Below are positions 11,689-47,695 of a stretch of 64,000 bases of DNA, one piece after another. Under the pieces are notes generated by a model. It searched no databases. It was not told the DNA's origin and worked only from the letters and a program-made list of their open reading frames with translations. The stretch's first letter is position 1. Every line of letters starts with the position of its first letter. The stretch lies in assembly GCA_947499595.1 (NCBI GenBank), contig CANMOY010000008.1, positions 41,757 through 105,756 of the forward strand. The letters are read 5' to 3'. The translations under genes and the position numbers were made by a program. The DNA comes from an uncultured Mesonia sp. (lineage in GTDB: Bacteria; Bacteroidota; Bacteroidia; Flavobacteriales; Flavobacteriaceae).

Positions 11689-13785
11689 ATGAATAAATAT
11701 TTGTATTGCATATTCGTATTATTACTCAGTTTAAATCCGCTTTTAGCTCAAGATCAATTAAATACAGATAAGAGTCTGTTCGTTGAATTAGATCTTAAAA
11801 ATCCGAGTAGGGAGATTAATGATGCAGTAGCTATGCTACAAGTGAGTGGAGGAGTAGCCCCTTATACGTATTATTGGAGCAATAAGGAAACTTCTATGCA
11901 AGCCACTAAATCTACAGGATTAATTGAAGGTATGTCTCATCACGTTCGTGTAGTAGATAGTCAAGGTAATGAAGTTACCAAAACCTTTAAAATCCCCGCC
12001 CAATCGATTACCGAAATTTTTAACAGCAAGGTACAACCTGCCGTTGATGTATTGGCGAGTATTCTTTTTTGGGATCCTTTTGCTAGTTTGGGCGTATATG
12101 ACCCCGTGGTTTACACCCAACATGAGCGTATTGGCATTCCTAATTGGGATGCCACAACGCAGTCTGCCTATACCTTGAAAACTTGGTTGGTAGACGAAGG
12201 TGAATCCGTTAAAACCGGAGAAAAGATAGCAATAATACAAAGTGATAGCAGTAAAGAAATTCCGGTTTTTGCTAGTGTAAACGGTAGTTTAGAACATAAA
12301 GTAGGTGTAGGGGAAGTAATCTACAATCCAGATGATCAAAAAGATGTGATACAAGCCAATGCGCACATTTTGGCACGCATCGTATTTGAAGAGCCACGAC
12401 CTTTATTGCATAATAATGGAGAGGTAAGAACCAATACCATTCCGTTTATTGTGATTTGGCTTATTTTAGGAAGTATATTTTTCACCTTTCGTTTGGGGTT
12501 TATCAACATCAGTGGTTTTAAGCATTCCATTGATCTAGCAAGAGGTAAATATGACAATCCCGATGCACCGGGAACTATAACCCACTTTCAAGCCATGGCA
12601 ACAGCCGTATCGGCTACCGTTGGATTAGGAAATATCGCAGGTGTGGCAGTGGCCATATCTTTGGGAGGAGCCGGAGCAACTTTTTGGATGTTTCTAGCTG
12701 GTTTTTTTGCGATGTCACTAAAATTTGTTGAATGTACGCTAGGGGTAAAATACCGATTTATCAATAAAGAGGGGCGTATATTTGGTGGACCTATGAATTA
12801 CCTGCGTTACGGTTTAGAAAAGAAAAACCTAAAAGGTCTTGGAAAATTCTTGGCAATTCTATTTGCTGTACTCGGGGTAGGTGCCTCTTTTGGCGGAGGA
12901 AATATGTTGCAATCTAACCAGGCCTTTAAAATAGTATCAGAACAATTACCTTTCCTGCAAGGTCACGGCTTTTGGTTTGGTGTTATTTTTGCCCTGCTAA
13001 TAGGTGCTGTTATTATAGGTGGTATAAACAGTATTGCCCGAGTAACCGGTAGGGTTGTTCCATTTATGGCGGCGGTTTATATTATTGGTTGTTTAATTGT
13101 TATTGGTGTGCATATTGAAAATATAGGCGGAGCATTCGCAGCTATTTTTAACGGTGCCCTTTCTGCCGATGCGCTCAAAGGCGGATTTATTGGCGTATTG
13201 ATTATTGGCCTACAACGAGCTGCATTCTCTAGTGAAGCAGGAGTAGGATCGGCAGCTATTGCCCACAGTGCCTCAAAAACAAATACTCCCATCGCCGATG
13301 GTTTTACCTCATTAGTAGAGCCATTTATAGATACTATGGTGGTGTGTACTATGACCGCGCTAGTGCTTATCTTTTCGGGAATGCACGAGAGAACAGGCTT
13401 AGGTGGGGTAGAGCTAACCTCAGACGCTTTTGGTAGTGTAATTTCTTGGTTCCCAGCAGTATTGGCTTTTGCTGTTTTCTTATTCGCTTTTTCAACAATG
13501 GTCTCTTGGTCGTATTACGGAATGCGTTCATGGACCTACCTTTTTGGTAGAAGCAAACAATCTGAACTTGTTTTTAAAGTATTGTTTTTAGTTTTTGTAG
13601 TGCTCGGAGCTTCAGTAAGTTTAGGGGCGGTGTTAACCTTTGCCGATATGATGATTTTGGCCATGTCTTTTCCTAATATTATCGGGTTGTATTTATTATC
13701 ATCGGAGGTTAGAGCAGATTTAAAATTGTATTTAGCCCAACTCAAGAAGGGTGAACTTTACATAAACCCTAAGTTTAGGGAATAA
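11689..13785 (+). CDS. Sodium:alanine symporter (AGCS) with SprB-like and lipoyl-like N-terminal domains
   Basis: This is a 698-residue protein. Residues 1-20 are a signal peptide. Residues about 30-100 form an SprB-repeat-like beta domain (VSGGVAPYTYYWSN...GLIEG...VRVVDSQG). Residues about 160-232 look like a biotinyl/lipoyl domain (WLVDEGESVKTGEKIAIIQS...GSLEHKVGVGEVI). From about 250 to 690 it is an AGCS alanine/sodium symporter with about ten helices and the family motifs ATAVSATVGLGNIAGVAVAI and SSEAGVGSAAIAHS. The segment ASILFWDPF at 123-131 resembles the start of the first AGCS helix, so the lipoyl-like domain may be inserted just after it. The other paralog in this window has the same arrangement. 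It likely imports alanine or glycine with Na+; the role of the extra domains is unknown, and a modifiable lysine in the lipoyl-like hairpin is not clearly conserved. Confidence 0.85.
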   Translation: MNKYLYCIFVLLLSLNPLLAQDQLNTDKSLFVELDLKNPSREINDAVAMLQVSGGVAPYTYYWSNKETSMQATKSTGLIEGMSHHVRVVDSQGNEVTKTFKIPAQSITEIFNSKVQPAVDVLASILFWDPFASLGVYDPVVYTQHERIGIPNWDATTQSAYTLKTWLVDEGESVKTGEKIAIIQSDSSKEIPVFASVNGSLEHKVGVGEVIYNPDDQKDVIQANAHILARIVFEEPRPLLHNNGEVRTNTIPFIVIWLILGSIFFTFRLGFINISGFKHSIDLARGKYDNPDAPGTITHFQAMATAVSATVGLGNIAGVAVAISLGGAGATFWMFLAGFFAMSLKFVECTLGVKYRFINKEGRIFGGPMNYLRYGLEKKNLKGLGKFLAILFAVLGVGASFGGGNMLQSNQAFKIVSEQLPFLQGHGFWFGVIFALLIGAVIIGGINSIARVTGRVVPFMAAVYIIGCLIVIGVHIENIGGAFAAIFNGALSADALKGGFIGVLIIGLQRAAFSSEAGVGSAAIAHSASKTNTPIADGFTSLVEPFIDTMVVCTMTALVLIFSGMHERTGLGGVELTSDAFGSVISWFPAVLAFAVFLFAFSTMVSWSYYGMRSWTYLFGRSKQSELVFKVLFLVFVVLGASVSLGAVLTFADMMILAMSFPNIIGLYLLSSEVRADLKLYLAQLKKGELYINPKFRE

Positions 13786-13796
13786 TTTTTTTGATT

Positions 13797-14150
13797 TTAG
13801 GTAACCAAGCGGTCTTTGTGTTGAAAAAAAGCGTAAAGACCGCTTCCTATTAAATAGCAGCCTACATCTAAAAGGTCTGCCGTATAACGGCTGTTTACCT
13901 GCGGTAGATAGCATTCAAAATATAAAGAATAGCCCAACACCAAGACCACGAGCATCAAAACCGTAAAACGAAACGAAGGAAAAACAAACTGCATTACACC
14001 TTGAATAATACCTAATACAACAGGCATGCAAAGAATATCCATCAAATGGTTGTTAAAGACAGCAGGTAAACTGTAATGGCTGGCATTGAGTCCTAAATAG
14101 ATAAGTGCTATCGCGGTACTTACGATCCATAACCTGCGGGTATAACTCAT
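13797..14150 (-). CDS. Small four-helix membrane protein, unknown function
   Basis: From the ATG at 14150 the protein is 117 residues (MSYTRRLWIVS...) with about four hydrophobic helices and a polar C-terminus ending HKDRLVT. The start is chosen because ATGA at 14147-14150 overlaps the stop of the small upstream gene, a classic translational-coupling arrangement; the same frame is open back to 14210. I do not recognise the family. Its last codons contain an 11-bp inverted repeat (13807-13817 / 13835-13845). It converges with the first AGCS gene, whose stop is 11 nt away. Confidence 0.65.
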   Translation of the reverse strand: MSYTRRLWIVSTAIALIYLGLNASHYSLPAVFNNHLMDILCMPVVLGIIQGVMQFVFPSFRFTVLMLVVLVLGYSLYFECYLPQVNSRYTADLLDVGCYLIGSGLYAFFQHKDRLVT

Positions 14151-14311
14151 ATTAGTAAAAAAGAAATAAGCCAAGCCAAAAAAGCACCAATAGCCAATAC
14201 ACCACTCCATAAGTAAAAACCAACATCACCTAGAAACCTTAGGAAGGCATTTGAGCTTTGTCGTAGGCTATTTTTTTGTTTTGATTTTTCTTTTTTAGGT
14301 GGGGTTTCCAT
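14147..14311 (-). CDS. 54-residue membrane protein, coupled to the next gene
   Basis: I read a 55-codon frame from the ATG at 14311 to the TGA at 14147-14149. It encodes a lysine-rich start (METPPKKEKSKQKNS), a short amphipathic stretch and one or two hydrophobic segments (FYLWSGVLAIGAFLAWLISF). Its TGA overlaps the ATG of the downstream membrane-protein gene by 4 nt (ATGA), which supports it as real. The family is not recognised. A 16-bp perfect inverted repeat lies 22 nt upstream of its start. Confidence 0.6.
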   Translation of the reverse strand: METPPKKEKSKQKNSLRQSSNAFLRFLGDVGFYLWSGVLAIGAFLAWLISFLLI

Positions 14312-14332
14312 GCTGCTTTTGTACTGCTTATA

Positions 14333-14368
14333 TTTTAGCCTAAAAATATACTTATTTTTAGGCTAAAA
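14333..14368. promoter_or_regulatory. Perfect 16-bp inverted repeat with 4-nt loop
   Basis: TTTTAGCCTAAAAATA (14333-14348), loop TACT, then its exact complement (14353-14368). It lies in the divergent region between the small membrane-gene pair (-) and the DUF2851 gene (+). It lacks the GC-rich stem of a normal terminator; it could be an operator or an RNA hairpin acting on either gene. Confidence 0.6.
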
Positions 14369-14474
14369 AAAATGGCAAAACCTACATGTTTATAATTTAT
14401 TAGGTATCTTTAAGCCTATGTTGTTATAAATGAGCGATTAAAAGCTATCGGATAGGTTTTGTTTGTCTTGTAAT

Positions 14475-15746
14475 ATGAAAGAAGATTATTTACATTATGT
14501 ATGGAAATTTAAAAAATTTAATTTCCTAAATCTAAAAACCAGTCGGGGTCTACCCATTGTTGTTAAACATGTAGGCTGGCATAATGAAGATAAAAGCGGT
14601 CCCGATTTCTTTGATGCGAGAATTCAAATCGATGACCAATTGTGGGCGGGTAATGTTGAAATTCATCTTAAGGCAAGCGATTGGTTTGCACATCATCATC
14701 ATACTGATAAAGCTTATGATAATGTTATCTTGCATGTGGTGTGGGAAGAAGATATGCCCGTTTATAGAAGCGATGGTAGCAGTATACCTAGTCTTTGCTT
14801 GAAGCATTACGTAAATCTAGAAAGTTTAGAACACTACCAAGAATTATCCAGGCAAAAAAAGTTTATCAACTGCGAAAACCTCTTGCCCGATTTTTCAACT
14901 TTTATCGTACATAGCTGGCAAGAGAAGTTATACGTACGCCGTTTAGAGCAAAAAACAGAGTACATTCAACTTTTATTAAAAAACACCAAAAACGATTGGG
15001 AAAAAGTTTTGTTTATTCTCTTCGCTAAAGGCTTTGGTCTTAACGTAAACGGTTCATCCTTTCAACAGATGGCTGCTAATATTCCATTTAACCTAGTACG
15101 TAAAACGCAAAAAGTTCAAGTCCTAGAAGCCTTGTTTATGGGGATGTGTAAATTATTAGAAAGTGAGAAAGAAGATGTCTATTATCAAGAACTCCAAAAA
15201 GAATTTACATTTCTTCGCCATAAATACCAATTGGTAAGTATTACAAACCCCTTGGCATTTTTTAGGTTAAGACCATCTAATTTTCCTAGCATTCGGTTAG
15301 CTCAGTTAGCTTATTTATATCAGGATTCGGCCAATTTTTTTAATTTACTGATTGAAAAACCCGATATTCAATTATGGAGAGATCTCTTATTTAAAGTTAA
15401 AACCAGCCCGTATTGGGAAACGCATTATAATTTTGAGGTCAACTCCAAAACTAGGGTAAAAAAACTCTCTACTTCTTTCGTAGATTTAATGATCATCAAT
15501 GTATTGGTTCCCTTTAGCTTTAGTTATCACAAAGCCCGCGGAAAAGAAGTGGTAGATGATTTGTTTAGCATAATGAGTTCGCTTAAAGCGGAAGAAAATG
15601 CTCGTGTTAAAAAATTTAAACAATTAAAGCCAGAAATGGTACAAAATGCTTGGCATTCGCAATCTTTACTAAGCTTATACCAAGATTATTGTAAAAAACA
15701 AAAATGCTTAAATTGTCAAATTGGTGTATCTTTGCTTAACAAATAA
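14475..15746 (+). CDS. DUF2851 family protein
   Basis: The protein is 423 residues from the ATG at 14475; a TTG four codons upstream is less likely. It matches DUF2851, a family found widely in Bacteroidota: HYVWKFKKFNFLNLKTSRG at the start, GWHNEDKSGPDFFDARIQID, and WAGNVEIHLKASDWFAHHHH. The C-terminus has a small cysteine pair (KCLNCQ). The GPDF...VEIHLKASDW pattern resembles nuclease-type acidic/lysine motifs, but no activity is established and that link is only my inference. The next gene's promoter box lies inside its final codons. Confidence 0.85.
   Translation: MKEDYLHYVWKFKKFNFLNLKTSRGLPIVVKHVGWHNEDKSGPDFFDARIQIDDQLWAGNVEIHLKASDWFAHHHHTDKAYDNVILHVVWEEDMPVYRSDGSSIPSLCLKHYVNLESLEHYQELSRQKKFINCENLLPDFSTFIVHSWQEKLYVRRLEQKTEYIQLLLKNTKNDWEKVLFILFAKGFGLNVNGSSFQQMAANIPFNLVRKTQKVQVLEALFMGMCKLLESEKEDVYYQELQKEFTFLRHKYQLVSITNPLAFFRLRPSNFPSIRLAQLAYLYQDSANFFNLLIEKPDIQLWRDLLFKVKTSPYWETHYNFEVNSKTRVKKLSTSFVDLMIINVLVPFSFSYHKARGKEVVDDLFSIMSSLKAEENARVKKFKQLKPEMVQNAWHSQSLLSLYQDYCKKQKCLNCQIGVSLLNK
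15727..15734 (+). promoter_or_regulatory. -7 promoter box for the pspC-like gene
   Basis: TATCTTTG is a perfect TAnnTTTG match inside the last codons of the DUF2851 gene and 16 nt before the ATG at 15751. No clear TTTG lies 19 nt upstream. Confidence 0.4.
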
Positions 15747-15750
15747 CCCT

Positions 15751-15981
15751 ATGCTTAACCTTATTTATAAAATTCGCTATTATTTTGAACGCAATGGCTT
15801 TTATGTAAGCACTCGCCTAGCTGATAGGTTGGGGATAAAGGTTAAAAGCGTGCGCTTGTTTTTTATTTACCTTTCATTTGCTACTTTAGGAGTGGGCTTT
15901 GCTGTTTATTTAACGCTTGCCTTTTGGTTAAAATTAAAGGATTTAATCTATACCAAAAGAAGTTCTGTATTTGATTTGTAA
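15751..15981 (+). CDS. PspC-domain membrane protein
   Basis: This 76-residue protein starts at the ATG at 15751; the frame is open from 15721, but that overlaps the DUF2851 end and precedes the promoter box. It has a PspC-like layout: a short basic amphipathic region, STRLADRLGIKVKSVRLFFIYLS, then one hydrophobic helix (FATLGVGFAVYLTLAFWL). PspC-family proteins sense or respond to envelope stress in other bacteria. The K+ channel gene begins 3 nt after its stop, so the two are very likely co-translated. Confidence 0.7.
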   Translation: MLNLIYKIRYYFERNGFYVSTRLADRLGIKVKSVRLFFIYLSFATLGVGFAVYLTLAFWLKLKDLIYTKRSSVFDL

Positions 15982-15984
15982 AAT

Positions 15985-17016
15985 ATGCAAAAAATCTCAA
16001 CCAAAGTACTTTTAGCTTTAGTTTTACTCGTTGTGATTGTAATAGGTGGCGTGATAGGTTTTAAGTTGCTTGCCGATTACTCGTGGATAGATGCTTTCTA
16101 TATGACGGTAATTACCGTTACTACAGTGGGTTTTGGTGAGGTAGTACCCTTAACGCCAGACCAAAAATTATTTACCGGAATTTACATCATATTGAGTATA
16201 TCTATTTTTGGATATGCGATATCAACGGTTATTGAATTTATTCTGAGTACTAACAATATTGGTACTTTAAAACAAAGACGTATGCAAAAAGAAATTTCAG
16301 CGTTTACCAATCATATTATAGTGTGTGGCTATGGTCGAAATGGTAAAGAGGCAGTGCAAAAATTGAGTTCAAATAAAATGAATTTTGTTATAATTGAAAA
16401 TTCTGAAGAACAACTCGATCAAATCCGCCAAGAGGGTTTTTATTATATTGCTGGTGACGCCACCCAAGATGAGGTGTTAGAAATGGCAGGTATAGAAAAA
16501 GCAAAAGTGCTTTTGTGCTCCTTGCCCAGCGATGCAGATAATCTTTTTATTGTACTTTCGGCAAGACAGCTCAATCAAGACCTTACTATAATCAGCCGGT
16601 CTACAGATGAAAGCTCAAATAAAAAGCTAAAACTAGCAGGAGCAGATCAAGTCATTATGCCCGATCGTATTGGTGGTAGTCATATGGCTTCTTTGGTTGT
16701 AAACCCAGATTTGATTGAGTTTATGAGCGAGTTGGCAAATATTAATGAGAACGAAGAGGTAGAAGATCAAATTTTGGTTAAGAAACTTAACTTCTCTTTA
16801 TTAGGACGCTCAACGCCTATGAGCATTGCCGAATTAAACCTTAGAAAAGATACGGGATGCAGTATTATAGGGGTTCACGATAAAACCGGCGGATACACAA
16901 TAAATCCAGAGGCTGACATGAATTTAGATGAGTTTTCACAATTGATAATAGTGGGAAATATGCATCAAATGCGTAAACTTAAAAGCAAATATCCTAGCCT
17001 TAATTTTAAAATATAA
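15985..17016 (+). CDS. Potassium channel with RCK/TrkA domains
   Basis: This 343-residue protein has two transmembrane helices (about 5-28 and 63-85) flanking a pore loop with the selectivity filter TVTTVGFGE (about residues 44-52). A cytoplasmic RCK/TrkA-N Rossmann domain follows (IIVCGYGRNG at about 113-122, IAGDATQDEVLEMAGI), and then a TrkA-C-like domain (about 260-343). It should be a ligand-gated K+ channel of the MthK/Kch type. It is tightly linked to the PspC-like gene and lies between two Na+:alanine symporter paralogs, so it may help to balance membrane potential or osmolarity; that link is inference. Confidence 0.85.
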   Translation: MQKISTKVLLALVLLVVIVIGGVIGFKLLADYSWIDAFYMTVITVTTVGFGEVVPLTPDQKLFTGIYIILSISIFGYAISTVIEFILSTNNIGTLKQRRMQKEISAFTNHIIVCGYGRNGKEAVQKLSSNKMNFVIIENSEEQLDQIRQEGFYYIAGDATQDEVLEMAGIEKAKVLLCSLPSDADNLFIVLSARQLNQDLTIISRSTDESSNKKLKLAGADQVIMPDRIGGSHMASLVVNPDLIEFMSELANINENEEVEDQILVKKLNFSLLGRSTPMSIAELNLRKDTGCSIIGVHDKTGGYTINPEADMNLDEFSQLIIVGNMHQMRKLKSKYPSLNFKI

Positions 17017-17110
17017 ACGGGATAGCAAGTACTTTTTCTTTAAATAGTAAGCTAAAAATTTAATTTTTTTTTAATATTGCTATCTATTCTATCAAAAAAC
17101 AAGATATCTT

Positions 17111-19204
17111 ATGAGAAAGTATTTACTTTCGTTTTTATTTTTTTTACTGATTTTTTCATCGCTGCAAGCTCAAGAAGATTTTAATGAGAAAGATATTAAA
17201 GTCGTACCAGAGCTAATTAATCCGTCAAATTTAATCAATGACGGAATTATTGAATTGAATGTTACAGGGGGCGTTCCTCCTTATACTTTTAAGTGGAGCG
17301 ACCAAGGCACTTCGCTAAAATCTAACAAAGCAACTGGTGTTGTTGAGGGTATTGATTATACAGTAGTAATTACCGATGCTGAACAAAATACGTTAACCAA
17401 ATCTTACCGTATACCTGCCGAGTCAATTACAGAAAACTTTAATGGCGCGTTTAAACCCATTGTAGATAATCTAGCTTCAATTTTATTTTGGGATCCTTTT
17501 TCGGCTATAGGCTTATACGATCCTATCGTTTATGCCGATGAAAAAAATATCCCAATTCCTAATTGGTATTCAGGAATTCAAGACGCCTATAAATTAGAGA
17601 AGTGGTTGGTAAAAGAAGGAGAACATGTAAATAGAAACCAGGCCATTGCTATAATTAAATCGGAAAAAGAAGGAAATATAGAAGTTAAAGCATCTGCAAG
17701 TGGAACGCTAACCCATTTGACGTCTGAAGGAAATACCATTTACGATTACCAAAATACAGAAGATGTAATTGAAGCTGGAGCACATTTTTTTGCTAAGGTA
17801 AAATACGATGAGCCAGTAATATTGACACATCCCAACGGAGACCCTATTACTTTTCCTATTCCTTTTATTGTAGTTTGGTTAATTTTAGGAGCTGCCTTTT
17901 TTACTTTAAGAATGGGCTTTATAAACCTAAGAGGGTTTCGTCACGCTTTAGATTTAGCTAAAGGAAAATATGACGACCCCAATGCTCCAGGTAGGATTAC
18001 CCATTTTCAAGCACTGGCTACAGCGGTTTCGGCAACCGTTGGTTTAGGAAATATTGCAGGTGTAGCAGTGGCCATTTCTTTAGGTGGTGCAGGGGCAACC
18101 TTTTGGATGATTTTAGCCGGACTGTTAGGAATGTCTTCTAAGTTTGTAGAATGTACTTTGGGTGTAAAATATAGGTTTATCAGTAAAGAAGGAAAGATTT
18201 TTGGGGGACCAATGAACTATCTCCGCTACGGATTAGAAAAACGAAATATGTCTGGTTTAGGTAAATTTTTAGCAGGTTTCTTTGCCGTCTTAGGAGTAGG
18301 AGCATCTTTTGGAGGAGGTAATATGTTTCAAGCCAATCAATCTTTTGAGATCTTATCGGGCCAATTTCAATTTTTAGAGGGACACGGCTTTATCTTCGGA
18401 CTTGTGGTTGCGGCTTTGGTAGCAGTAGTGATTATTGGAGGTATTTCAAGTATTGCTAAAGTTACCGGTAAGGTGGTTCCTTTCATGGCAGCGATTTATG
18501 TTTTGGGAGCCTTAATTGTTATTGGTATAAATATTGAAAATATTGGCCCAGCCTTTAATGCTATTTTTGAAGGCGCTTTTAATCCTTCGGCCCTAAAAGG
18601 GGGAATTATCGGGGTGCTTATTGTAGGTTTTCAGAGAGCTGCTTTTTCTAATGAAGCAGGTGTAGGTTCTGCAGCTATTGCCCATAGTGCGGCAAAAACA
18701 AATCATCCTCCATCAGAAGGTTTTGTAGCTTTGCTAGAGCCTTTTATCGATACCGTAGTAGTTTGTACGCTTACCGCATTGGTTTTAATTTTTACAGGAA
18801 TGCACGAAGTTGAAGGAATAGGCGGAGCTCAGCTTACCTCAGAAGCCTTTGCTAGTGTAATATCTTGGTTTCCCTATGTATTGGCGGCCGCGGTATTTTT
18901 GTTCGCTTTTTCAACAATGATTTCTTGGTCTTATTACGGTATGAGAGCTTGGACTTATTTATTTGGGAAGTCAAACCAATCGGAATTAATTTATAAATTA
19001 CTATTTTTATTGTTTGTTGTTGTAGGGGCATCGGTAAGTTTAGGGGCTGTGTTAGATTTTTCTGATATGATGATTCTAGCCATGTCTTTCCCCAATATCA
19101 TTGGGTTGTATATATTATCTGGAGAAGTACGTGATGATTTACGGGAGTATTTGAGAAAATTAAAAGCCGGTGAGTTATTCAAAAAGCAAAAAATTAAAGT
19201 GTAA
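17111..19204 (+). CDS. Second sodium:alanine symporter (AGCS) with SprB-like and lipoyl-like domains
   Basis: This 697-residue paralog of the gene at 11689 has the same order of parts. It has a signal peptide (1-20), an SprB-like domain (about 30-100; VTGGVPPYTFKWSD), the segment LASILFWDPF (121-130), and a lipoyl-like domain (about 160-232; WLVKEGEHVNRNQAIAIIKS...SGTLTHLTSEGNTI). The AGCS transporter core follows from residue 250, with ATAVSATVGLGNIAGVAVAI and SNEAGVGSAAIAHSAAKT. The transporter cores of the two copies are very similar while the N-terminal domains are more diverged. It is followed after 11 nt by the helix-hairpin-helix gene. The 94 bases upstream hold a weak 8-bp inverted repeat (17021-17028 / 17077-17084) and no clear promoter box. 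Confidence 0.85.
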   Translation: MRKYLLSFLFFLLIFSSLQAQEDFNEKDIKVVPELINPSNLINDGIIELNVTGGVPPYTFKWSDQGTSLKSNKATGVVEGIDYTVVITDAEQNTLTKSYRIPAESITENFNGAFKPIVDNLASILFWDPFSAIGLYDPIVYADEKNIPIPNWYSGIQDAYKLEKWLVKEGEHVNRNQAIAIIKSEKEGNIEVKASASGTLTHLTSEGNTIYDYQNTEDVIEAGAHFFAKVKYDEPVILTHPNGDPITFPIPFIVVWLILGAAFFTLRMGFINLRGFRHALDLAKGKYDDPNAPGRITHFQALATAVSATVGLGNIAGVAVAISLGGAGATFWMILAGLLGMSSKFVECTLGVKYRFISKEGKIFGGPMNYLRYGLEKRNMSGLGKFLAGFFAVLGVGASFGGGNMFQANQSFEILSGQFQFLEGHGFIFGLVVAALVAVVIIGGISSIAKVTGKVVPFMAAIYVLGALIVIGINIENIGPAFNAIFEGAFNPSALKGGIIGVLIVGFQRAAFSNEAGVGSAAIAHSAAKTNHPPSEGFVALLEPFIDTVVVCTLTALVLIFTGMHEVEGIGGAQLTSEAFASVISWFPYVLAAAVFLFAFSTMISWSYYGMRAWTYLFGKSNQSELIYKLLFLLFVVVGASVSLGAVLDFSDMMILAMSFPNIIGLYILSGEVRDDLREYLRKLKAGELFKKQKIKV

Positions 19205-36586: not shown

Positions 36587-37285
36587 ATGAAAAGAATTAT
36601 AAAATTAGTTATTTGCTTGTTAAGCCTAACTAGCTTCGCACAAGTGGCCCCGCTAGAAAATCATACTTGGTATTTAGAGAAATTGGTGATTAACGGGAAT
36701 GATTTTCTGCCACCAAGTGCCTATCAAAATAGTTATACTGCAAATTTTGCCAACAATGCAGATTTTATTTTTTTAGCCGCTTGTTATCCAGTTGATGGTA
36801 CATTGACGTACAATCAAAACCAAAATTTTAATATTAATTTTGCGGGCTATCCTTTAGATTGTGATGGCTTATCTCAGCAAGTTATAGATTATGATTTAAA
36901 AATAATCAACGATTATGTTAATACTAATGCACCAAATAATCCTTTTTCTTATTCCTTCAATTATCAATCTAATTTTATAGTGTTAACAGTAACTAACGGC
37001 AATGGCGATAAGGCCATATACCGTAACCAACAACTTGGGATTTCTAGTAATGAAAAATCAGAAGTTGATCTTTATCCTAATCCTGTGACAAGCAGTTTTC
37101 AATTAGATATAAATGCTGGGAGCAATATTAAAACAGTTCGTATTTTTTCCGTTAACGGCAAAGAAGTAATGCATTTTAAACAACCACAAGGCAGTTATAA
37201 TGTATCTCAACTTTCACCGGGTATTTATTTTGTAAAAATTGAGGGTGAATACGTTAAGAATAATATGAAGCTTTTAAAAATTTAA
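36587..37285 (+). CDS. Secreted T9SS type A protein, tandem copy 1
   Basis: This 232-residue protein has a signal peptide (MKRIIKLVICLLSLTSFA), a constant start to the mature part (QVAPLENHTWYLEKLVINGND), a variable middle (about 40-140) with two cysteines, and a C-terminal T9SS type A sorting domain of about 80 residues (VDLYPNPVTSSFQLD...SVNGKEVM...LSPGIYFVKIEG). It should be exported by the type IX system and attached or released at the cell surface. It is the first of three tandem paralogs separated by 3 nt each. The function of the mature part is not recognised. Confidence 0.85.
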   Translation: MKRIIKLVICLLSLTSFAQVAPLENHTWYLEKLVINGNDFLPPSAYQNSYTANFANNADFIFLAACYPVDGTLTYNQNQNFNINFAGYPLDCDGLSQQVIDYDLKIINDYVNTNAPNNPFSYSFNYQSNFIVLTVTNGNGDKAIYRNQQLGISSNEKSEVDLYPNPVTSSFQLDINAGSNIKTVRIFSVNGKEVMHFKQPQGSYNVSQLSPGIYFVKIEGEYVKNNMKLLKI

Positions 37286-37288
37286 ATC

Positions 37289-37993
37289 ATGGAAGCAATT
37301 ATAAAATTAGTTATTTGTTTATTGAGCCTAACTAGCTTTGCGCAAGTAGCCCCACTAGAAAATCATACTTGGTATTTAGAAAAATTGGTGATCAACGGGA
37401 ATGATGTATTTCCGCCACAAAATTTAAATCCTTATAATGATTTTAACTGGAACAATCAACAAGATTATTTTGTAGTGCAATCTTGTTCGGATTTACTTGG
37501 AATAATGATTTATGATGACGGGAATAGTCAATTCACTATAACCAATTCTTCGGTAGGACCAGGCGAATGTCCGAGTGTTCCAGATGCTGATATGTTTGAT
37601 ACCACGTATATCTTCGAGTTTTATGATTTCTATACTGGTCATCCAACCCCATTTACTTATGCTTTTACTAATGTATCCAATTATATTGTCTTAACAATTA
37701 CTAGCGCCAATGGGGATCAAGCCATATACCGTAACCAACAACTTGGGGTTTCTAGCAATGACAAATTAGAAGTTGACCTTTATCCTAATCCCGCAACAAG
37801 CAGTTTTCAATTAGATATAAATGCTGGGAGCAATATTAAAACAGTTCGTATTTTTTCCGTTAACGGAAAAGAAGTAATGTATTTTAAGCAACCACAAGGC
37901 AGTTATAATGTATCTCAACTTTCACCAGGTATTTATTTTGTAAAAATTGAGGGTGAATACGTTAAGAATAATATCAAGCTTTTAAAAATTTAA
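37289..37993 (+). CDS. Secreted T9SS type A protein, tandem copy 2
   Basis: This 234-residue second copy has nearly the same signal peptide, constant mature N-terminus and sorting domain as copy 1 (the last about 80 residues differ at only a few positions), but a quite different middle (about residues 40-140; NPYNDFNWNNQQDYFVVQ, two cysteines, PSVPDADMFDTTYIFEFYDF). The start is the ATG at 37289 in ATGGAAGCA, 3 nt after copy 1's stop, within a repeated boundary AAATTTAAATCATG. The pattern of constant ends and a swapped centre suggests duplication followed by gene conversion at the ends or fast change in the centre. Confidence 0.85.
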   Translation: MEAIIKLVICLLSLTSFAQVAPLENHTWYLEKLVINGNDVFPPQNLNPYNDFNWNNQQDYFVVQSCSDLLGIMIYDDGNSQFTITNSSVGPGECPSVPDADMFDTTYIFEFYDFYTGHPTPFTYAFTNVSNYIVLTITSANGDQAIYRNQQLGVSSNDKLEVDLYPNPATSSFQLDINAGSNIKTVRIFSVNGKEVMYFKQPQGSYNVSQLSPGIYFVKIEGEYVKNNIKLLKI

Positions 37994-37996
37994 ATC

Positions 37997-38686
37997 ATGA
38001 AAGCAATTATAAAATTAGTTATTTGTTTGTTAAGCCTAACTAGCTTTGCGCAAGTAGCCCCACTAGAAAATCATACTTGGTATTTAGAAAAATTGGTAAT
38101 TAACAATACAGACTTTTCTGTGCCGAATGGGTTTAGTAATTCTTATTTCGCAAATTTTACTAACGGTGCAGATTATTCCCTAAATGCACCCTGTTATCCC
38201 ATTCAAGGAACATTAAGCTATAGTCAAAACCAAACTTTTAATATCAATGATGCAAGTTCACCTTTAGACTGTGACGGCTTGCCTCAGCAAGTAACAGAAT
38301 ATGATGAAAAAATAATGTTTAGCATTAATCTTTCAAACAATCCATTTTCTTACGTCTTTAGTTACAAGTCCAATTATATTGAACTAACAATTACTAACGC
38401 CAATGGCGATCAAGCTATATACCGTAACCAACAACTTGGGATTTCTAACAATGACAAACCAGAAGTTGATCTTTATCCTAACCCCGCAACAAGCAGTTTT
38501 CAATTAGATAAAGATGCTGGGAGCAATGTTAAAACAGTTCGTATTTTTTCCGTTAACGGAAAAGAAGTAATGCATTTTAAAAAACCACAAGGCAGTTATA
38601 ATATATCTCAACTTTCACCGGGTATTTATTTTGTAAAAATTGAGGGTCAAATAGGGCAGAAAATGAAGAAAATCATTATAGAATAA
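37997..38686 (+). CDS. Secreted T9SS type A protein, tandem copy 3
   Basis: This 229-residue third copy has the same signal peptide and constant start, and a middle that resembles copy 1 (CYPIQGTLSYSQNQTFNIN...LDCDGLPQQV) rather than copy 2. The sorting domain is shared (VDLYPNPATSSFQLD), but the last 12 residues differ: GQIGQKMKKIIIE instead of GEYVKNNMKLLKI. The KKIIIE ending is closer to the usual T9SS type A end, so the tails of copies 1 and 2 look derived. A bidirectional terminator follows. Confidence 0.85.
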   Translation: MKAIIKLVICLLSLTSFAQVAPLENHTWYLEKLVINNTDFSVPNGFSNSYFANFTNGADYSLNAPCYPIQGTLSYSQNQTFNINDASSPLDCDGLPQQVTEYDEKIMFSINLSNNPFSYVFSYKSNYIELTITNANGDQAIYRNQQLGISNNDKPEVDLYPNPATSSFQLDKDAGSNVKTVRIFSVNGKEVMHFKKPQGSYNISQLSPGIYFVKIEGQIGQKMKKIIIE

Positions 38687-40473: not shown

Positions 40474-40551
40474 CCCCAAATTAAAATTTTATTCTTCTGT
40501 ACTTGAGTGGATAAGCTTTTATTAAACCTAACCAATAAATTTTCTTTCTAT

Positions 40552-43500
40552 ATGAAGGTGTTTTTACGAGTTCTGTTTTTACTCTTTTTCTTATTTGTTT
40601 TTGTTTTTTCTTATTCTCAGCAAAAACAACCGCCATCAATTTTTAGCATAGACGCTATTATTTTAGGAAACAACAGCGTATTTGCCACTACCACTGTATC
40701 GGGTAGAATTTATCGAGATGCTAATAATAATGGTACCCAGGATCCGTTTGAGAATGGTATCCCTAACGTAGATGTTTTAATTTTTGGGGCAACCATTTCT
40801 CAAGCTGTTTCAACCGATGCTAACGGAGATTGGATAGCGGTTATCGATCCGGGGCCAACCACTATTGCTATTGATAATACTGATTTACCTCCAGGGTATA
40901 TTCAAACAGAAGGTACAAATCCACAAACCATTAATGCTGTTGCCAATGTCGATAATTTTACCGATAAGGATGGTTTTTATTTTGAAGGTCAAATAAACGG
41001 TCATTTATATTTTGATGTCAATGGTAATGGATCACAAGATTCAGGCGAACCCGATATGCCTAATGTCACCATAAACATTACCGATACTTTTGGGCAAGTT
41101 ACCAGTGTGAGTACAGATGCCAATGGAGACTGGCTAGCTACGGTTGCAGCTGTAGACGTAAGTATTGATATAGATGATAACGACCCCGACTTCCCTACAG
41201 GAGCTATACAAACTGAAGGAACAGATCCTACCCCTTTTACGGTAATCAATAATACCAATACTTTTACCGAAAATGACGGTTTTTATGAACAAGGTATATT
41301 AGAAGGGCATCTTTATTTAGATGTAAATGGTAACGGAACACAAGACACAAGTGAACCAGATTTAGCCAATATCGATGTGAACGTTGTTGATGCTTTGGGA
41401 ACTACTCATGCCTTAATTACTGATGCAAACGGAAACTGGTCGGTAATTTTGCCAGCAGGAAATGCTACCTCTACCATAGATGTTAATGATCCCGATTTCC
41501 CCACAGGAGCGGTGCAAACCGAAGGTACTAACCCTACTACAACTATGGTGGTGAACAATCAAACCGTTAGCGATGATGGAGTGTTAAATGATGGTTTTTT
41601 TGAATCAGGCACATTAGAGGGGCACGCTTATCTTGATAAAAATGGAAATGGAAGTCAAGACCCTACAGAGCCAGACTTGATCAACGTAGATGTAAACATT
41701 ACAACTTCTTTAGGTACTAACTTGGTTGTGGTTACAGATGCTGCAGGAAATTGGAGTGCTATGGTTCCTATTGGGAATACCACCGCTTTTATAGATGTAA
41801 ATGATCCTGATTTCCCCACTGGTGCTATACAGACAGAAGGAACCAATCCTACCACAAGTTTTGTTACTTTGAATACGGTGGTAAGCGATGACGGGACTAC
41901 AGTAAATGATGGATTTTATGAAGTAGGTACCTTAGAAGGTCGAGTTTATTTTGACGCTAATGGTAACGGTACCCAAGACAATCAAGAAACAGGTATTGCC
42001 AACGTTAGAGTAAATATTACCGATGTGTTTAACACTACTCAAGTAGTTACCACTGATGGAAACGGAGATTGGTCTGTAAACTTGCCAGCAGGTACAGCAG
42101 TTTCAGACATTGAGAATAGCGATTTGCCAAACGGGGTGGTGCAAACCGAAGGAACAGATCCTACAACCAGCACCATTGTGACAGGTCAAATTACAAGCGA
42201 TGACGGACCCAATACCAATGATGGTTTCTTTGCTGAAGGCACACTGCTAGGCCACTTGTACCACGACCAAAATAATAACGGTGTTCAAGATGCGGGAGAA
42301 CCTAATCTACCCAATGTAGATGTTCAGATAACCAATAGCTTGGGTAATACTACGGTGGTCACTACTAATGCAACTGGAGATTGGTCCATTACCACTCCAG
42401 TGGGAAATACAACTTCTTTAATCGATGTTAACGATCCAGATTTTTTAGTAGGAGCCGTACAAACCCAGGGTACGAATCCTACCACTACTGCCATTACGGC
42501 AAATAACGTTTTAAATGAAGTTCCAGACGGATTTTATTTGCCAGCTCAAAACTTAGGTACGCTGCAAGGTCATCTTTATTTTGATAGCAACGGAAACGGA
42601 ACTCAAGATGCCGGTGAGCCCGATTTAAGTTATGTAGATGTGGTAATAACCGATTCGCAAGGAATAATTCAAGTGGTAACTACAAATACTGCGGGCGATT
42701 GGAGTGCAAACGTGCCAGCCGGTAATACGCAATCGGCTATTGATAGAAATGATCCAGATTTTCCTGCGGGTGCCATTCAAACCGAAGGTACAGACCCTAG
42801 TATTACCGCTGTTACTGCCAATAATACGATAAGCGAAACACCAGATGGCTTCTCATTTACAAATCAGGCAACAGGAACTTTACAAGGTCATGTATACTAC
42901 GATGTAAATGGTAACGGAACCCAAGATAGTGGTGAACCCAATTTTTCAAATGTTCAAATTATTGTTCAGGATGCCGCAAACTTAATCTATAATACTGTTA
43001 CCGATGCCAATGGAGATTGGTCTGTAGTGGTTAATGCAGGGGCTGCGACCTCAAACATTAACAATGCCGACTTACCACCTGGTTTTGTGCAAACCCAAGG
43101 TACTGATCCTACAACAACTAATGTAGTAGCCAATACCGTAACAGCTGAGACTCCCGATGGCTTTACAGATTCAAACTTACCTCTTGGTGAATTAACGGGA
43201 CATATCTATTTTGATAGTAATAATAATGCCACCCAGGATACTGGAGAACCCAATTTGCCTAATGTAGATGTGCAAATCATAGATGTGAATGGTATAATAC
43301 AAGTAATTTCTACAGATGCTAATGGAGATTGGAAGGTAACGGTACCCGAAGGTTTAACCACTTCAGATATAGTCTTAACCGATCCAGATATGCCTGCGAA
43401 TGTGGTTCAGACCGAGGGTTCTAATCCAACAATAACTGTAGTGGTACAAAATACTTCTACAAGCGAAGTGCCAGATGGTTTCTTTTTACCTAATACTCAA

Positions 43501-44424
43501 TTTGGAATGCTTCAAGGTCATTTGTATGAGGATTCAAATAATAATGGCACACAAGATGCCGGCGAACCCGACTTACCTAATGTTGACGTAGTAATAACCG
43601 ATGCACTGGGTATACAACAAACCTTGGTTACCGATGCTGCCGGAAATTGGAGTGTTAGCGTGCCAGAGGGTATAACCCGTAGCGAAATTCAAACTACAGA
43701 TCCAGATTTTCCTGCTGGTGCGGTACAAACCCAAGGAACAAACCCTACGCTTACCGTGGTGGTGGCAAACACTACAACCAGTGAAGTACCTGACGGATTT
43801 TTCGCCATCGGTAATGAAGTTGAAGTTTTTAGAGGGATTGTTTACTTGGATGTAAACGGTAACGGAACCCAAGATGACAATGAGCCAGGTATTCCAAACA
43901 TTCCGGTACAAATCACCGATGGTCAAGGAAATATGATTCAAGTACAAACAGATAGTCAAGGGGAATGGGAAGAAGAGATATTTACAGGGCAAGTATTGTC
44001 TTATATAGATGTAGATAGTCCTAATTTTCCCTCCTACTCGTATCAGACAGAAGGGAGTAATCCTAGTAGTTTTACTTTGCTGAAGGATACACCAATTTTC
44101 GAGAAAAATGGTTATCACTTAGAACCTTTACACATATACAATGCGATTTCTCCTAATGGTGATGGTAAAAATGACGTACTTATTATTCAAGGTATCGAGC
44201 GTTATCCTGATAATGAATTCAAGGTGTTCAATCGTTGGGGAGTGTTGGTTTATGAAGCGAAAGGTTATGGACAAGACAATAAGTTTTTTACTGGCTTTAG
44301 TCAAGGAAGAGCCACCCTTAATAAGGATGAAAAATTACCTTCAGGAACTTACTTTTACACCTTAAAGTATAGAGATAGTAATAATCAAGAACGAGATTTA
44401 GACGGTTATTTGTACATCAATTAA
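40552..44424 (+). CDS. Giant SdrD B-like repeat surface protein with T9SS type B sorting domain
   Basis: The protein is 1290 residues from the ATG at 40552; a GTG 15 codons earlier is less likely because the signal peptide starts at MKVFLRVLFLLFF. Eleven copies of an SdrD B-like domain of about 105 residues follow, each opening GHLYxDxNGNGTQDxGEP, a DxNxNGxxD calcium-binding loop, and continuing NVDVxITDxxG and TDAxGNWSVxVPxG. The last about 90 residues (SPNGDGKNDVL...FKVFNRWGVLVYEA...GTYFYTLKYRD) are a gliding-motility-type (CHU/type B) T9SS sorting domain. It is probably a Ca2+-stiffened surface adhesin or motility adhesin. The PorP/SprF and OmpA-like genes follow directly, as for SprB-type adhesins. 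Confidence 0.92.
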   Translation: MKVFLRVLFLLFFLFVFVFSYSQQKQPPSIFSIDAIILGNNSVFATTTVSGRIYRDANNNGTQDPFENGIPNVDVLIFGATISQAVSTDANGDWIAVIDPGPTTIAIDNTDLPPGYIQTEGTNPQTINAVANVDNFTDKDGFYFEGQINGHLYFDVNGNGSQDSGEPDMPNVTINITDTFGQVTSVSTDANGDWLATVAAVDVSIDIDDNDPDFPTGAIQTEGTDPTPFTVINNTNTFTENDGFYEQGILEGHLYLDVNGNGTQDTSEPDLANIDVNVVDALGTTHALITDANGNWSVILPAGNATSTIDVNDPDFPTGAVQTEGTNPTTTMVVNNQTVSDDGVLNDGFFESGTLEGHAYLDKNGNGSQDPTEPDLINVDVNITTSLGTNLVVVTDAAGNWSAMVPIGNTTAFIDVNDPDFPTGAIQTEGTNPTTSFVTLNTVVSDDGTTVNDGFYEVGTLEGRVYFDANGNGTQDNQETGIANVRVNITDVFNTTQVVTTDGNGDWSVNLPAGTAVSDIENSDLPNGVVQTEGTDPTTSTIVTGQITSDDGPNTNDGFFAEGTLLGHLYHDQNNNGVQDAGEPNLPNVDVQITNSLGNTTVVTTNATGDWSITTPVGNTTSLIDVNDPDFLVGAVQTQGTNPTTTAITANNVLNEVPDGFYLPAQNLGTLQGHLYFDSNGNGTQDAGEPDLSYVDVVITDSQGIIQVVTTNTAGDWSANVPAGNTQSAIDRNDPDFPAGAIQTEGTDPSITAVTANNTISETPDGFSFTNQATGTLQGHVYYDVNGNGTQDSGEPNFSNVQIIVQDAANLIYNTVTDANGDWSVVVNAGAATSNINNADLPPGFVQTQGTDPTTTNVVANTVTAETPDGFTDSNLPLGELTGHIYFDSNNNATQDTGEPNLPNVDVQIIDVNGIIQVISTDANGDWKVTVPEGLTTSDIVLTDPDMPANVVQTEGSNPTITVVVQNTSTSEVPDGFFLPNTQFGMLQGHLYEDSNNNGTQDAGEPDLPNVDVVITDALGIQQTLVTDAAGNWSVSVPEGITRSEIQTTDPDFPAGAVQTQGTNPTLTVVVANTTTSEVPDGFFAIGNEVEVFRGIVYLDVNGNGTQDDNEPGIPNIPVQITDGQGNMIQVQTDSQGEWEEEIFTGQVLSYIDVDSPNFPSYSYQTEGSNPSSFTLLKDTPIFEKNGYHLEPLHIYNAISPNGDGKNDVLIIQGIERYPDNEFKVFNRWGVLVYEAKGYGQDNKFFTGFSQGRATLNKDEKLPSGTYFYTLKYRDSNNQERDLDGYLYIN

Positions 44425-44433
44425 TAAAATAGT

Positions 44434-45363
44434 ATGAACAAGAATTTTTTTCTTTTAATCATAAGTATGGTGCTTTTTGTGCCATTTAGTAATGCACAAC
44501 AAGACGCACAATTTACACAATATATGTACAATCCGCTTAGCTTTAACCCAGCCTATGCGGGTAGTCGTGATGTGCTTAGTGCCGTTCTAATTCATCGTTC
44601 ACAATGGTTGGGCGTACAAGGAGCTCCAACCACACAGCATTTGAGTGGTCATAGCCCAATAAATGAGACTATGAGTGTAGGCTTAAATATTATGCGTGAT
44701 GAGGTAGGGCCAATGCAAGAAAATACTATTCAAGCAAGTTATAGCTACGGTATTTTTCTTAATCGAAGCTTGAGACTTAACTTCGGTTTGCAATTGGGAG
44801 CAAATTTACTCGATGTAGATTTTAATAAATTATCAATTAGAGACCCTAATGATCCCAACTTTGCCGAAAATATCGATAAGAAGTTTTCGCCACAATTCGG
44901 TTTAGGTGCCATGCTATATGATGAAAATTATTATATTGGAATTAGCGTTCCAAATCTGGTTGAAACCGAACATTTTGATCAATCCAATAATTCAAATTCG
45001 AAAACTTTAGTAAAAGAAAAAGCCTCTTTCTATCTAACTGGGGGGTACGTTTGGCAAGTTTCTCCCAATTTAAAATTTAAGCCTACTTTACTATCAAAAA
45101 TTACAACGGGCTCTCCCTTGCAAATAGATATTTCAACAAACTTCTTGTTGTATGATAAATTTACGCTAGGAGCTGCTTACCGTTGGGATTCGGCTATAAG
45201 TGCATTGGCTGCATTTCAAATTTCAGACTCCTGGTTGATAGGTGTTGCCTACGATATGGAAACAACTTCATATTCAGCCTACAACAATGGTAGCTTAGAA
45301 GCCTTTTTGAGATTTGAATTATTCAAGAAATACAATAAAATGCTAACGCCACGATTCTTCTAA
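44434..45363 (+). CDS. PorP/SprF family type IX secretion outer-membrane protein
   Basis: This 309-residue protein has a signal peptide (about 1-21, ...VPFSNAQ), then DAQFTQYMYNPLSFNPAYAGSRD (quoted in part: YNPLSFNPAYAGSRD), the diagnostic N-terminal motif of PorP/SprF. The rest is beta-rich and ends with RFF. Members of this family are outer-membrane barrels that help to deliver or hold a T9SS type B cargo encoded next to them; here the cargo is the upstream repeat adhesin (gap 9 nt). It probably has no general role in T9SS. Confidence 0.92.
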   Translation: MNKNFFLLIISMVLFVPFSNAQQDAQFTQYMYNPLSFNPAYAGSRDVLSAVLIHRSQWLGVQGAPTTQHLSGHSPINETMSVGLNIMRDEVGPMQENTIQASYSYGIFLNRSLRLNFGLQLGANLLDVDFNKLSIRDPNDPNFAENIDKKFSPQFGLGAMLYDENYYIGISVPNLVETEHFDQSNNSNSKTLVKEKASFYLTGGYVWQVSPNLKFKPTLLSKITTGSPLQIDISTNFLLYDKFTLGAAYRWDSAISALAAFQISDSWLIGVAYDMETTSYSAYNNGSLEAFLRFELFKKYNKMLTPRFF

Positions 45364-45367
45364 AAAA

Positions 45368-47695
45368 ATGGTTATGAAAATGCAAAATATCACTTACTTA
45401 CTTTTTCTTTTCACCTTTTTCTTTCAAAGCTCATTATTGGCTCAAGAAGATAAGTTAAAAGAAGCAGATAAAATGTTCGATAGGTATGCCTTTATAGATG
45501 CCCGAGAAATATACTTAGAAGTAGCAAAAGCGGGCTATGAGTCTGAAAACCTTTTTAAAAAACTTGGGGACTCTTATTATTTTAACGGAGAACTTACTCA
45601 AGCACTCAATTGGTATGAAAAGCTCTATGGATTGAAGTCAGAAAATCTAGATGAGAGTTATTTGTTTAGGTATGCCATGGCTTTAAAAAGTAATGAGCAG
45701 TACAAAAAATCGGATTCGGTGCTTCTAGAATTTGAAAAATTAAAAGAAAATGATTCGCGGGTTGAACTTTTAAAAGGAGAACGAAATTACCTCGAATTAA
45801 TTGAATTGCAGTCCGGTAAATTTGAAATTGAATTGGCTAATATCAATTCAAAGTTATCAGACTTTTCGCCCCAAGTGGTTGATAGTTTGTTGATTTTTGC
45901 ATCCAATAAGGAAGTTGCTTCTACAGTAAAAAGGGTTCATGAATGGAATAAACAACCTTACTTAGACTTATATTTTGTAAAGCTTAATGAAGATAATCAA
46001 ATTGTGAGCGAGCCAACCCCATTTGAAGAAACCATTAATTCAAAATTCCACGAATCTTCGGCTTGTATGACAAAAGATGGCTTAACCCTCTATTTTACTC
46101 GAAATAATTACAATAAGAAAAAATACGGAAAAAGTGAGGAGGGAATCAATTTTTTAAAAATATATAAATCAGAACGTGAAAGTATAGATGCCCCTTGGGG
46201 AACACCAGAGGAGTTACCCTTTAATAATGATAACTATTCCGTAGCACATCCTACCTTAAATAAAGACGAGACTAAGTTATTTTTCGCTTCAGATATGCCA
46301 GGTACTAGAGGAATGTCCGATATTTATTTTGTCGAAATTTTAGCTGACGGCTTTGGGGATCCTGTAAATTTAGGCGAGCACATTAATACAGAAGCCAGGG
46401 AAACCTTCCCATACTTTTCAGATAAAAATGAGCTTTATTTTGCCAGTGATGGGCATATTGGTCTAGGAGGTCTAGATGTATTTGTCACCGTTTCGAAAGA
46501 GGATGGTACATTTGGCGAAGTTTTTAATGTTGGCGCACCTATAAACAGTTCAAAAGATGATTTTAGCTTCGTATTTACGCAAGGAAGCAAAAAAGGTTTT
46601 TTTGCTAGTAACCGTCCAGGCGGATTAGGCGAAGATGATATCTATCATTTCACACAAAAAGAAGATTTAATAACCGCCTGTCAACAATATGTGAGCGGAG
46701 TAATTACGCAAACCGAGAACCAGCAACCCATTGCTGGAGTGAAAGTAGAGTTGTATGATGAAAATTTAACATTTTTAGATGAAACGGTTACAGATGATGA
46801 AGGGGGCTATGAATTTACTCTTGATTGCGATACACGTTATATTATACGAGTTTCAAAAGATCAATTCAAAACCGATGAGAAGCTCTTAAAATCAGGTTCT
46901 GAATTTGAGAAAAATTTTGATCTTCCTTTGAATGTAGAGAAAGGTGGTAATTCAACCTTGGGCGTAACTAAAGCGGGAAAAGGAGATGATTTACGAAGTC
47001 TGCTACAACTCGACCCTATTTATTTTGATTTAGATGATAGTCAGATAAGAGCAGATGCTGAGGTGGAATTACAAAAAATCGTTGCAGTACTTAAAAAGTA
47101 TCCTGAGATGAAAATTGATATCCGATCGCATACCGACAGTAGAGCAGGAGATGCCTACAATATGTTGTTATCAGAAAAAAGAGCAAAAGCAACCGTATCA
47201 TACCTTCGCAACCAAGGTATTTCTTCAGGAAGAATATCAGGAAAGGGTTATGGCGAAACACAATTAATTAATCATTGTGAAAACAACGTACCTTGCTCTG
47301 AGCAAGAACACCAATTAAATCGTAGGTCAGAATTTATCATATTAAATGATAATGAAACCCCAGAGATTTTAAGAAAAAATATCAGTAAACGTCAGCAAGA
47401 AAGTCAGCAAATAAAAGACAAAGCAGAAAACAAGGAGCTCACTACAACTTACGATTTTACTAGTAATGAGATTTATTATACCGTTCAAATTGCAGCCGTA
47501 AATAAAAACAATCCTTTGGTTGGTTTTAATGAAGTTTCTGGTGTATTTAACCATGTTTATCCCGATGGGCTAAGAAGATATTTCTCTAAGTTATTTAAAA
47601 CTAGAGAGGAAGCAGATCAATATAAGTTGGTCGTTCGTGAAGCTGGTATAAAAGGTGCTTTCGTGGTAGGAATTCAAGGGCAAAACAGGTTCTAA
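45368..47695 (+). CDS. OmpA-family protein with TPR, PD40, Ig-like and SPOR domains
   Basis: This 775-residue protein contains a signal peptide (to about residue 26, LLAQ), a TPR-like region (about 30-135), PD40/WD40-like beta-propeller repeats (about 165-440; LFFASDMPGTRGMSD, LYFASDGHIGLGGLD, KGFFASNRPGGLGEDD) and a carboxypeptidase-regulatory-like domain (about 455-525). An OmpA peptidoglycan-binding domain follows (about 550-665; IYFDLDDSQIRADAEVELQK, DIRSHTDSRAGDAYN), then a C-terminal SPOR-like domain (about 695-770; YYTVQIAAVNK). It likely ties the adhesin-PorP complex to the cell wall. It ends the three-gene operon. Confidence 0.92.
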   Translation: MVMKMQNITYLLFLFTFFFQSSLLAQEDKLKEADKMFDRYAFIDAREIYLEVAKAGYESENLFKKLGDSYYFNGELTQALNWYEKLYGLKSENLDESYLFRYAMALKSNEQYKKSDSVLLEFEKLKENDSRVELLKGERNYLELIELQSGKFEIELANINSKLSDFSPQVVDSLLIFASNKEVASTVKRVHEWNKQPYLDLYFVKLNEDNQIVSEPTPFEETINSKFHESSACMTKDGLTLYFTRNNYNKKKYGKSEEGINFLKIYKSERESIDAPWGTPEELPFNNDNYSVAHPTLNKDETKLFFASDMPGTRGMSDIYFVEILADGFGDPVNLGEHINTEARETFPYFSDKNELYFASDGHIGLGGLDVFVTVSKEDGTFGEVFNVGAPINSSKDDFSFVFTQGSKKGFFASNRPGGLGEDDIYHFTQKEDLITACQQYVSGVITQTENQQPIAGVKVELYDENLTFLDETVTDDEGGYEFTLDCDTRYIIRVSKDQFKTDEKLLKSGSEFEKNFDLPLNVEKGGNSTLGVTKAGKGDDLRSLLQLDPIYFDLDDSQIRADAEVELQKIVAVLKKYPEMKIDIRSHTDSRAGDAYNMLLSEKRAKATVSYLRNQGISSGRISGKGYGETQLINHCENNVPCSEQEHQLNRRSEFIILNDNETPEILRKNISKRQQESQQIKDKAENKELTTTYDFTSNEIYYTVQIAAVNKNNPLVGFNEVSGVFNHVYPDGLRRYFSKLFKTREEADQYKLVVREAGIKGAFVVGIQGQNRF

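Follow-up and report, generated by a model that had tools for sequence, protein, structure and literature searches.

The 64,000-nucleotide window analysed here, from contig CANMOY010000008.1 of an uncultured Mesonia sp., carries two genes for symporters of the AGCS family (TC 2.A.25) whose N-termini hold two additional beta domains, one resembling the repeat of the adhesin SprB and the other a lipoyl-type barrel. This architecture is real and conserved, and it lies within a known transporter family, of which it is a new variant and not a new kind of protein. Our preferred reading, to which we assign a probability of roughly 0.5, is that an AGCS gene gained the SprB-like domain and then the barrel at one conserved locus, and that the resulting extension is a built-in periplasmic accessory module.

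Two symporters with two beta domains ahead of the core

Copy A (positions 11689..13785, 698 amino acids) and copy B (17111..19204, 697 amino acids) are open reading frames on the forward strand, as are all of their parts and the neighbouring channel gene given below; they lie 3.3 kb apart, are 65% identical end to end, and are the sole AGCS genes that a genome-wide search found in this genome. Both contain, in the same order, a predicted signal peptide, the SprB-like domain, a helix with the motif FWDPF, the lipoyl-like barrel and the AGCS core, which bears out the twin layout given in a preliminary description of the window. The core (A, residues 252-686, 12442..13746; B, residues 251-685, 17861..19165) matches Na_Ala_symp (PF01235) with 389 bits in A and 417 in B (cut-off 24) and TIGR00835 with 371 and 397 bits (cut-off 272.65). 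Copy B aligns from residue 251 on with AgcS (6cse), and its core has the AgcS fold; the solved AgcS chain, in contrast, starts just before the first transmembrane helix of the core (TM1; aligned from its residue 15) and has neither a SprB-like nor a lipoyl-like domain. The signal peptides (residues 1-20 in each; 11689..11748 and 17111..17170) are predictions read from the sequence without a signal-peptide predictor, for A also from its alignment with B and for B from a model helix at residues 2-23.

The SprB-like, immunoglobulin-type domain (A, residues 30-106, 11776..12006; B, residues 29-105, 17195..17425) has the GGxPPYxYxW motif and the TVTD-like stretch of the SprB repeat (PF13573). In whole-protein searches B scores 29.0 bits, over the cut-off of 28, and A scores 23.7, under it; cut out, the domain of B reaches 34.1 bits. 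When the SprB profile was compared with cut-out domains from both window copies and 25 relatives, all 27 members matched at E ≤ 0.1 (best E 4.4e-11). The FWDPF helix follows (A, residues 107-139, 12007..12105, placed by alignment and conservation; B, residues 106-138, 17426..17524, with model helices at 106-125 and 129-132), and after it the barrel-sandwich insert (A, residues ~146-237, 12124..12399; B, residues ~145-236, 17543..17818), delimited by comparison with barrel-less relatives. Its match to Biotin_lipoyl (PF00364), which spans residues ~139-240 of B, scores 29.3 bits in whole B (cut-off 22.1), a weak 15.5 in A, and 33.6 in the cut-out domain of B, and the profile found 26 of the 27 cut-out domains at E ≤ 0.1 (best E 3.4e-8). 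Both domain assignments made from the sequence at the outset are thus supported. Among Protein Data Bank (PDB) structures, the best profile relatives of the SprB-like part are, among others, intimin and neck and decoration proteins of phages, and those of the barrel are E2 and carboxylase carrier domains.

An AlphaFold2 model of copy B, built from a 117-row alignment (109 rows with the barrel, 8 without), has a mean predicted local distance difference test score (pLDDT) of 85.3 and a predicted template modelling score of 0.82, and is confident through both extension domains. It places strands at residues 30-100 (pLDDT 78-92), a helix at 106-125, strands at 141-237 (pLDDT 84-96) and the first core helix from 252; a model from the two window sequences only reached a pLDDT of 33. 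Fold matches of the extension are weak only, namely lipoyl-binding and SprB-repeat proteins in a viral library at E 4e-3 to 1e-2. A fold search in the PDB with the whole model returned lists dominated by LeuT-fold cores, so that the extension was barely probed, and gave one carboxylase row (8rth, E 5.1e-4) for which the matching domain was not assigned. Over its first 245 residues, copy B shares 98% identity with a protein of Mesonia sp. HuA40. Because of the profile matches, the model and recurrence in database relatives the layout is neither a chance product nor a mis-assembly.

The SprB adhesin is large, repetitive and secreted by the type IX system, with many repeats in one protein, whereas here a single copy of the repeat is fused to a membrane transporter. 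The listed non-AGCS matches to the SprB-like part lie in frames of 782-5092 amino acids in Flavobacteriaceae genomes. SprB itself is a cell-surface gliding adhesin (PMC7807042).

An insertion before TM1 and its likely history

The preliminary description took FWDPF and the later stretch IPFIVxWL to be two pieces of a first-helix region split by an insertion, and loop lengths, barrel-less loci and the nesting of the tree agree with this. L125, F126, W127, D128 and F130 are present in all 117 alignment rows, with and without the barrel, and P129 in 116 of them; the NG pair at 242-243, just after the barrel, is likewise found in 117 of 117 (109 with the barrel and 8 without). The distance from the aromatic residue before TM1 to the TM1 proline is 1-30 residues in plain AGCS proteins (n=13, median 2), 7-10 in forms with only a signal peptide (n=13), 31-33 in forms with the SprB-like domain only (n=23) and 122-123 in barrel-bearing forms (n=37). 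Read from these aligned sequences, the series indicates that the two pieces are the pre-TM1 helix and TM1, with about 90 residues placed between them. Between these two helices the AGCS fold thus has a site that accepts whole domains.

The extension is far from universal in the family. A search of 149 Flavobacteriaceae genomes (148 genera) found some AGCS gene in 144, and the long extension, defined as a near full-length match to the 220-residue extension at E ≤ 1.5e-50, in 27 genes of 21 genomes, one of these genes being a short frame (G400, 373 amino acids); SprB-only forms occur in 2 more genomes. We therefore reject the idea that the extension is present in all AGCS proteins. Across the phylum, sampled with 390 genomes, frames of 692-717 amino acids that carry the extension were found solely in Flavobacteriaceae (8 genomes, including the window's own), and 6 further matching genomes have SprB-type matches in frames of 1004-2966 amino acids; because the query was 154 residues long and the threshold was E ≤ 1e-8, remote forms could have been missed. 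A third search, of 296 genomes, matched 32, comprising 17 SprB-only forms (16 by reading their N-termini, G557 by frame length), 14 with frames of at least 690 amino acids (N-termini read in 12, all except G130 and G234) and one fragment (G543). Among 235 listed database relatives, taken from two protein searches (best 120 of 581 and best 120 of 918), 221 have a barrel-sized insert, 13 have SprB-only spacing and 1 lacks the motif used. The opinion that this is not a standard architecture is thus right in that the layout is unusual for AGCS, but the layout is not private to this genome. A literature search limited to open PMC papers found no publication on an AGCS protein with a lipoyl-like or SprB-like fusion.

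SprB-only forms come from database proteins named Sinomicrobium and Ascidiimonas and from genomes of other Flavobacteriales families. Many AGCS proteins of the Flavobacteriaceae, about 545 amino acids long (for example, L063-L092), have an apparent signal peptide and a pre-TM1 loop of 7-10 residues and no extra domain, so that the signal peptide seems to be older than the domains.

The locus is also shared. Around barrel-bearing genes the order is DUF2851, a K+ channel gene in some loci, AGCS copy B, a comEA-like gene, an acyl-CoA dehydrogenase gene, xerD and tuf. Among 80 such loci, the best 80 of 374 matches ranked by extension similarity (some of the 374 may be non-transporter SprB-repeat proteins, and some loci end at contig ends), AGCS B is present in 80, acyl-CoA dehydrogenase in 77, comEA-like in 75, xerD in 73, DUF2851 in 69, tuf in 65 and the K+ channel in 48. 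Copy B is thus the copy conserved at this locus in relatives, and the A and B pair is found in 15 of the 80 loci, in Mesonia, Zunongwangia, Salegentibacter, Haloflavibacter and Christiangramia. In the window, the K+ channel gene (15985..17016; Ion_trans_2, TrkA_N and TrkA_C by Pfam) lies directly upstream of copy B, and a functional link between it and Na+-coupled uptake is possible. Fifteen SprB-only loci, drawn from the 19 such genomes found in the searches of 149 and 296 genomes, each match 2-6 of the six neighbours, in varying order and orientation (xerD 14, tuf 13, comEA-like 13, acyl-CoA dehydrogenase 12, DUF2851 7, K+ channel 4). Because of this similar neighbourhood, the simplest reading is that the forms with and without the barrel are orthologous.

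All trees used the columns of the core alone. In the first, a motif filter dropped 6 of the 19 chosen plain loci and L097, L107 was excluded as truncated, and the program warned of long branches meeting near the outgroup. A 66-row tree, rooted on signal-peptide-only forms, omits the 13 plain rows and 7 hand-chosen rows with long branches or near-copies. It groups the barrel-bearing rows in one clade (support 85/81; 88% of 200 bootstrap trees), which joins the SprB-only rows of Sinomicrobium and Ascidiimonas at 100/98. The SprB-only rows form a single clade in 0% of bootstrap trees, and their monophyly is disfavoured by the approximately unbiased (AU) test (p 0.053). The simplest history that these trees suggest runs from a signal peptide to the SprB-like domain and then to the barrel, in one insertion; we infer the direction of change from the tree, which a single gain explains most simply. 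Inside the barrel-bearing clade, the A-type copies group together at 100/100 on a long stem (0.33), which points to an A/B duplication after the barrel was gained. In the first tree, the barrel-bearing forms of one genus of another Flavobacteriales family (L110, L112 and L115) group inside the Mesonia-like clade; other members of that family hold SprB-only forms, and in two regions from this genus (L236 and L237) the neighbours share only 24-39% identity with those of the window, which could reflect gene replacement in place.

The proposal that the extension is under selection is upheld by the ratios of nonsynonymous to synonymous substitution (dN/dS, Nei-Gojobori) against four Mesonia genomes, which are 0.006-0.07 for the core, 0-0.06 for the pre-TM1 helix, 0-0.15 for the SprB-like domain and 0.07-0.36 for the barrel; dS was at or near saturation against the genomes at loci L125 and L126, three values were not computable, and the SprB part of copy A at locus L123 was dropped (4 codons; broken frame). 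These values bear on the possibility that the extension is a lineage-specific decoration of little function, in which two common beta domains were picked up by chance and then tolerated. Within the protein the barrel evolves fastest, and the AGCS fusion was found solely within part of one order, as such a decoration would have it, but dN/dS is well below 1, both paralogues keep the extension, and it is complete in 80 of the 80 loci across many genera, albeit loci chosen by extension similarity. We consider a decoration of this kind improbable.

A predicted periplasmic barrel without a conserved acceptor lysine

The preliminary description also raised lipoylation or biotinylation of the barrel, which the sequences do not bear out. 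No hairpin column has a conserved lysine in the 109 barrel-bearing rows, whereas the genome's own SucB-type E2 has SDKA at the hairpin tip, and on these sequence grounds the barrel would not be a lipoyl carrier. Among the 21 hairpins of SucB length, 17 have Gly at the acceptor position and one has Lys. When that position is located in all 109 rows, Lys occupies it in 23 if the count starts from the N-terminal side and in 2 if it starts from the C-terminal side. Lipoate and biotin ligases are cytoplasmic, and the domain is predicted to be periplasmic. The barrel shares a profile with the biotin/lipoyl domains of PF00364 and E2 but differs in its missing conserved acceptor lysine and its predicted location, and, compared with E2 lipoyl domains, it has an additional C-terminal stretch, GAHxxAxIxYDEP.

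A working lipoylated or biotinylated carrier, whose role next to the transporter would be that of a redox or acyl arm, would account for the profile similarity to E2 lipoyl and biotin carrier domains, for the 23 rows with Lys, and for the fact that the SucB-type E2 is the genome's sole other match (residues 129-185 of the 220-residue query, at 36% identity). The counts in equal-length hairpins and from the C-terminal side, together with the export predicted from the signal peptide, run against it; we find it hardly credible and reject it for want of the acceptor lysine in the hairpin.

The predicted location rests on the signal peptide and the positive-inside rule. Acidic residues outnumber basic ones in the extension (32 D+E, 18 K+R), and the loop that follows TM1 is basic (5 K+R; segments hand-assigned from the model), which argues for an N-terminus outside and thus for two domains that are probably periplasmic. 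The barrel would then be a lipoyl-type fold that serves without the cofactor lysine, and does so on the predicted periplasmic side.

A proposed accessory module, its alternatives and copy A

This anatomy supports the reading of the extension as an accessory module. We propose that the FWDPF helix lies against the core's outer face and may position the two beta domains above the periplasmic entrance or next to it. There they would bind a putative partner, such as an envelope protein, another copy of the symporter or the cell wall. Partner binding might then position the transporter or tune it, much as the heavy chain 4F2hc acts on the LAT transporters. Both are amino-acid transporters with an extracytoplasmic accessory domain, and the comparison concerns only how they work. 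The 4F2hc accessory domain is described as modulating substrate affinity and specificity (PMC7589757), as part of a separate disulphide-linked subunit (PMC4192586) and as a member of the alpha-amylase family (PMC8537225). Here, in contrast, the accessory domains are on the same polypeptide.

An alternative is an extension that mainly serves folding, stability or self-association of the transporter, with no outside partner. Constraint on the FWDPF helix is similar to that on the core (dN/dS 0-0.06), its motif is near-invariant, and the insert keeps a constant size over the 37 rows measured. However, the solved AgcS core has no such extension, and the long form is not found in most of the 149 sampled Flavobacteriaceae genomes. 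We regard a mainly structural element as possible, if somewhat unlikely.

Several observations weigh against the accessory module gained at one locus. The barrel evolves fastest, with dN/dS up to 0.36, which is unexpected for a tight universal docking face, and copy A is under the curated cut-offs for both SprB and Biotin_lipoyl on its own sequence. Support for the barrel-bearing clade is moderate and the AU p value is borderline, so that several losses may explain the pattern in place of one gain. The neighbour matches of SprB-only loci are often weak (comEA-like 24-41% identity, acyl-CoA dehydrogenase 34-75%, DUF2851 in only 7 of 15), and some of them may be other members of those families.

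Under the accessory-module reading, copy A would be a later duplicate with changed substrate or turnover. Residue 514 in B numbering, the Asn of the SNEAG motif, is conserved in 78 of 79 B-type rows, in 23 of 23 SprB-only rows and in all 26 signal-peptide-only and plain rows; in A-type rows it is Ser in 17 of 17 (SSEAG), which in copy A is Ser515 (13231..13233). Rows were assigned to the A or B type by identity to the two window copies, and the motif was read from the alignment. The model of B places residue 514 three residues ahead of a helix break at 517, which we equate with the unwound stretch in TM6 of the LeuT fold. The changed residue of copy A is thus close to the TM7 break and to where the substrate site is expected. 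Because Ser replaces Asn next to this break, copy A likely differs from copy B in substrate or turnover. Only a small number of AGCS members have been characterised, and substrate annotations can be wrong (PMC12795558). As a clue to substrate, no riboswitch was found in the window at Rfam gathering thresholds, which did return five tRNAs there.

A more elaborate scenario, which we rate as a long shot, is that a 2-oxoglutarate dehydrogenase E2 lipoyl domain was captured, lost its lysine and was inserted into the first-helix loop of a LeuT-fold symporter to form, with the SprB-type domain, a lid at the gate for sensing or binding an envelope partner, with copy A as a substrate-binding transceptor. 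If that were true, copy A, with its altered SNEAG motif, would report the amino-acid supply and not feed the cell.

Elsewhere in the window, positions 36587-38686 hold three consecutive paralogues of about 230 amino acids with type IX sorting tails, the second 65% and the third 72% identical to the first; 34 of their first 36 positions are identical in all three, and the middle has diverged. At 40507-47695, a protein of 1305 residues, which combines eight SdrD_B-type stretches with a CHU_C type IX signal domain, is followed by PorP/SprF and OmpA-family proteins, in what looks by its domains like a surface-adhesin cluster.

In the AGCS family, the relatives described here amount to a natural experiment, in which one symporter gene, apparently at one address, carries one or two extra domains beside forms that have a signal peptide only. 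Natural homologues, together with domain deletions, would thereby make it possible to measure what an accessory domain does to a LeuT-fold transporter.

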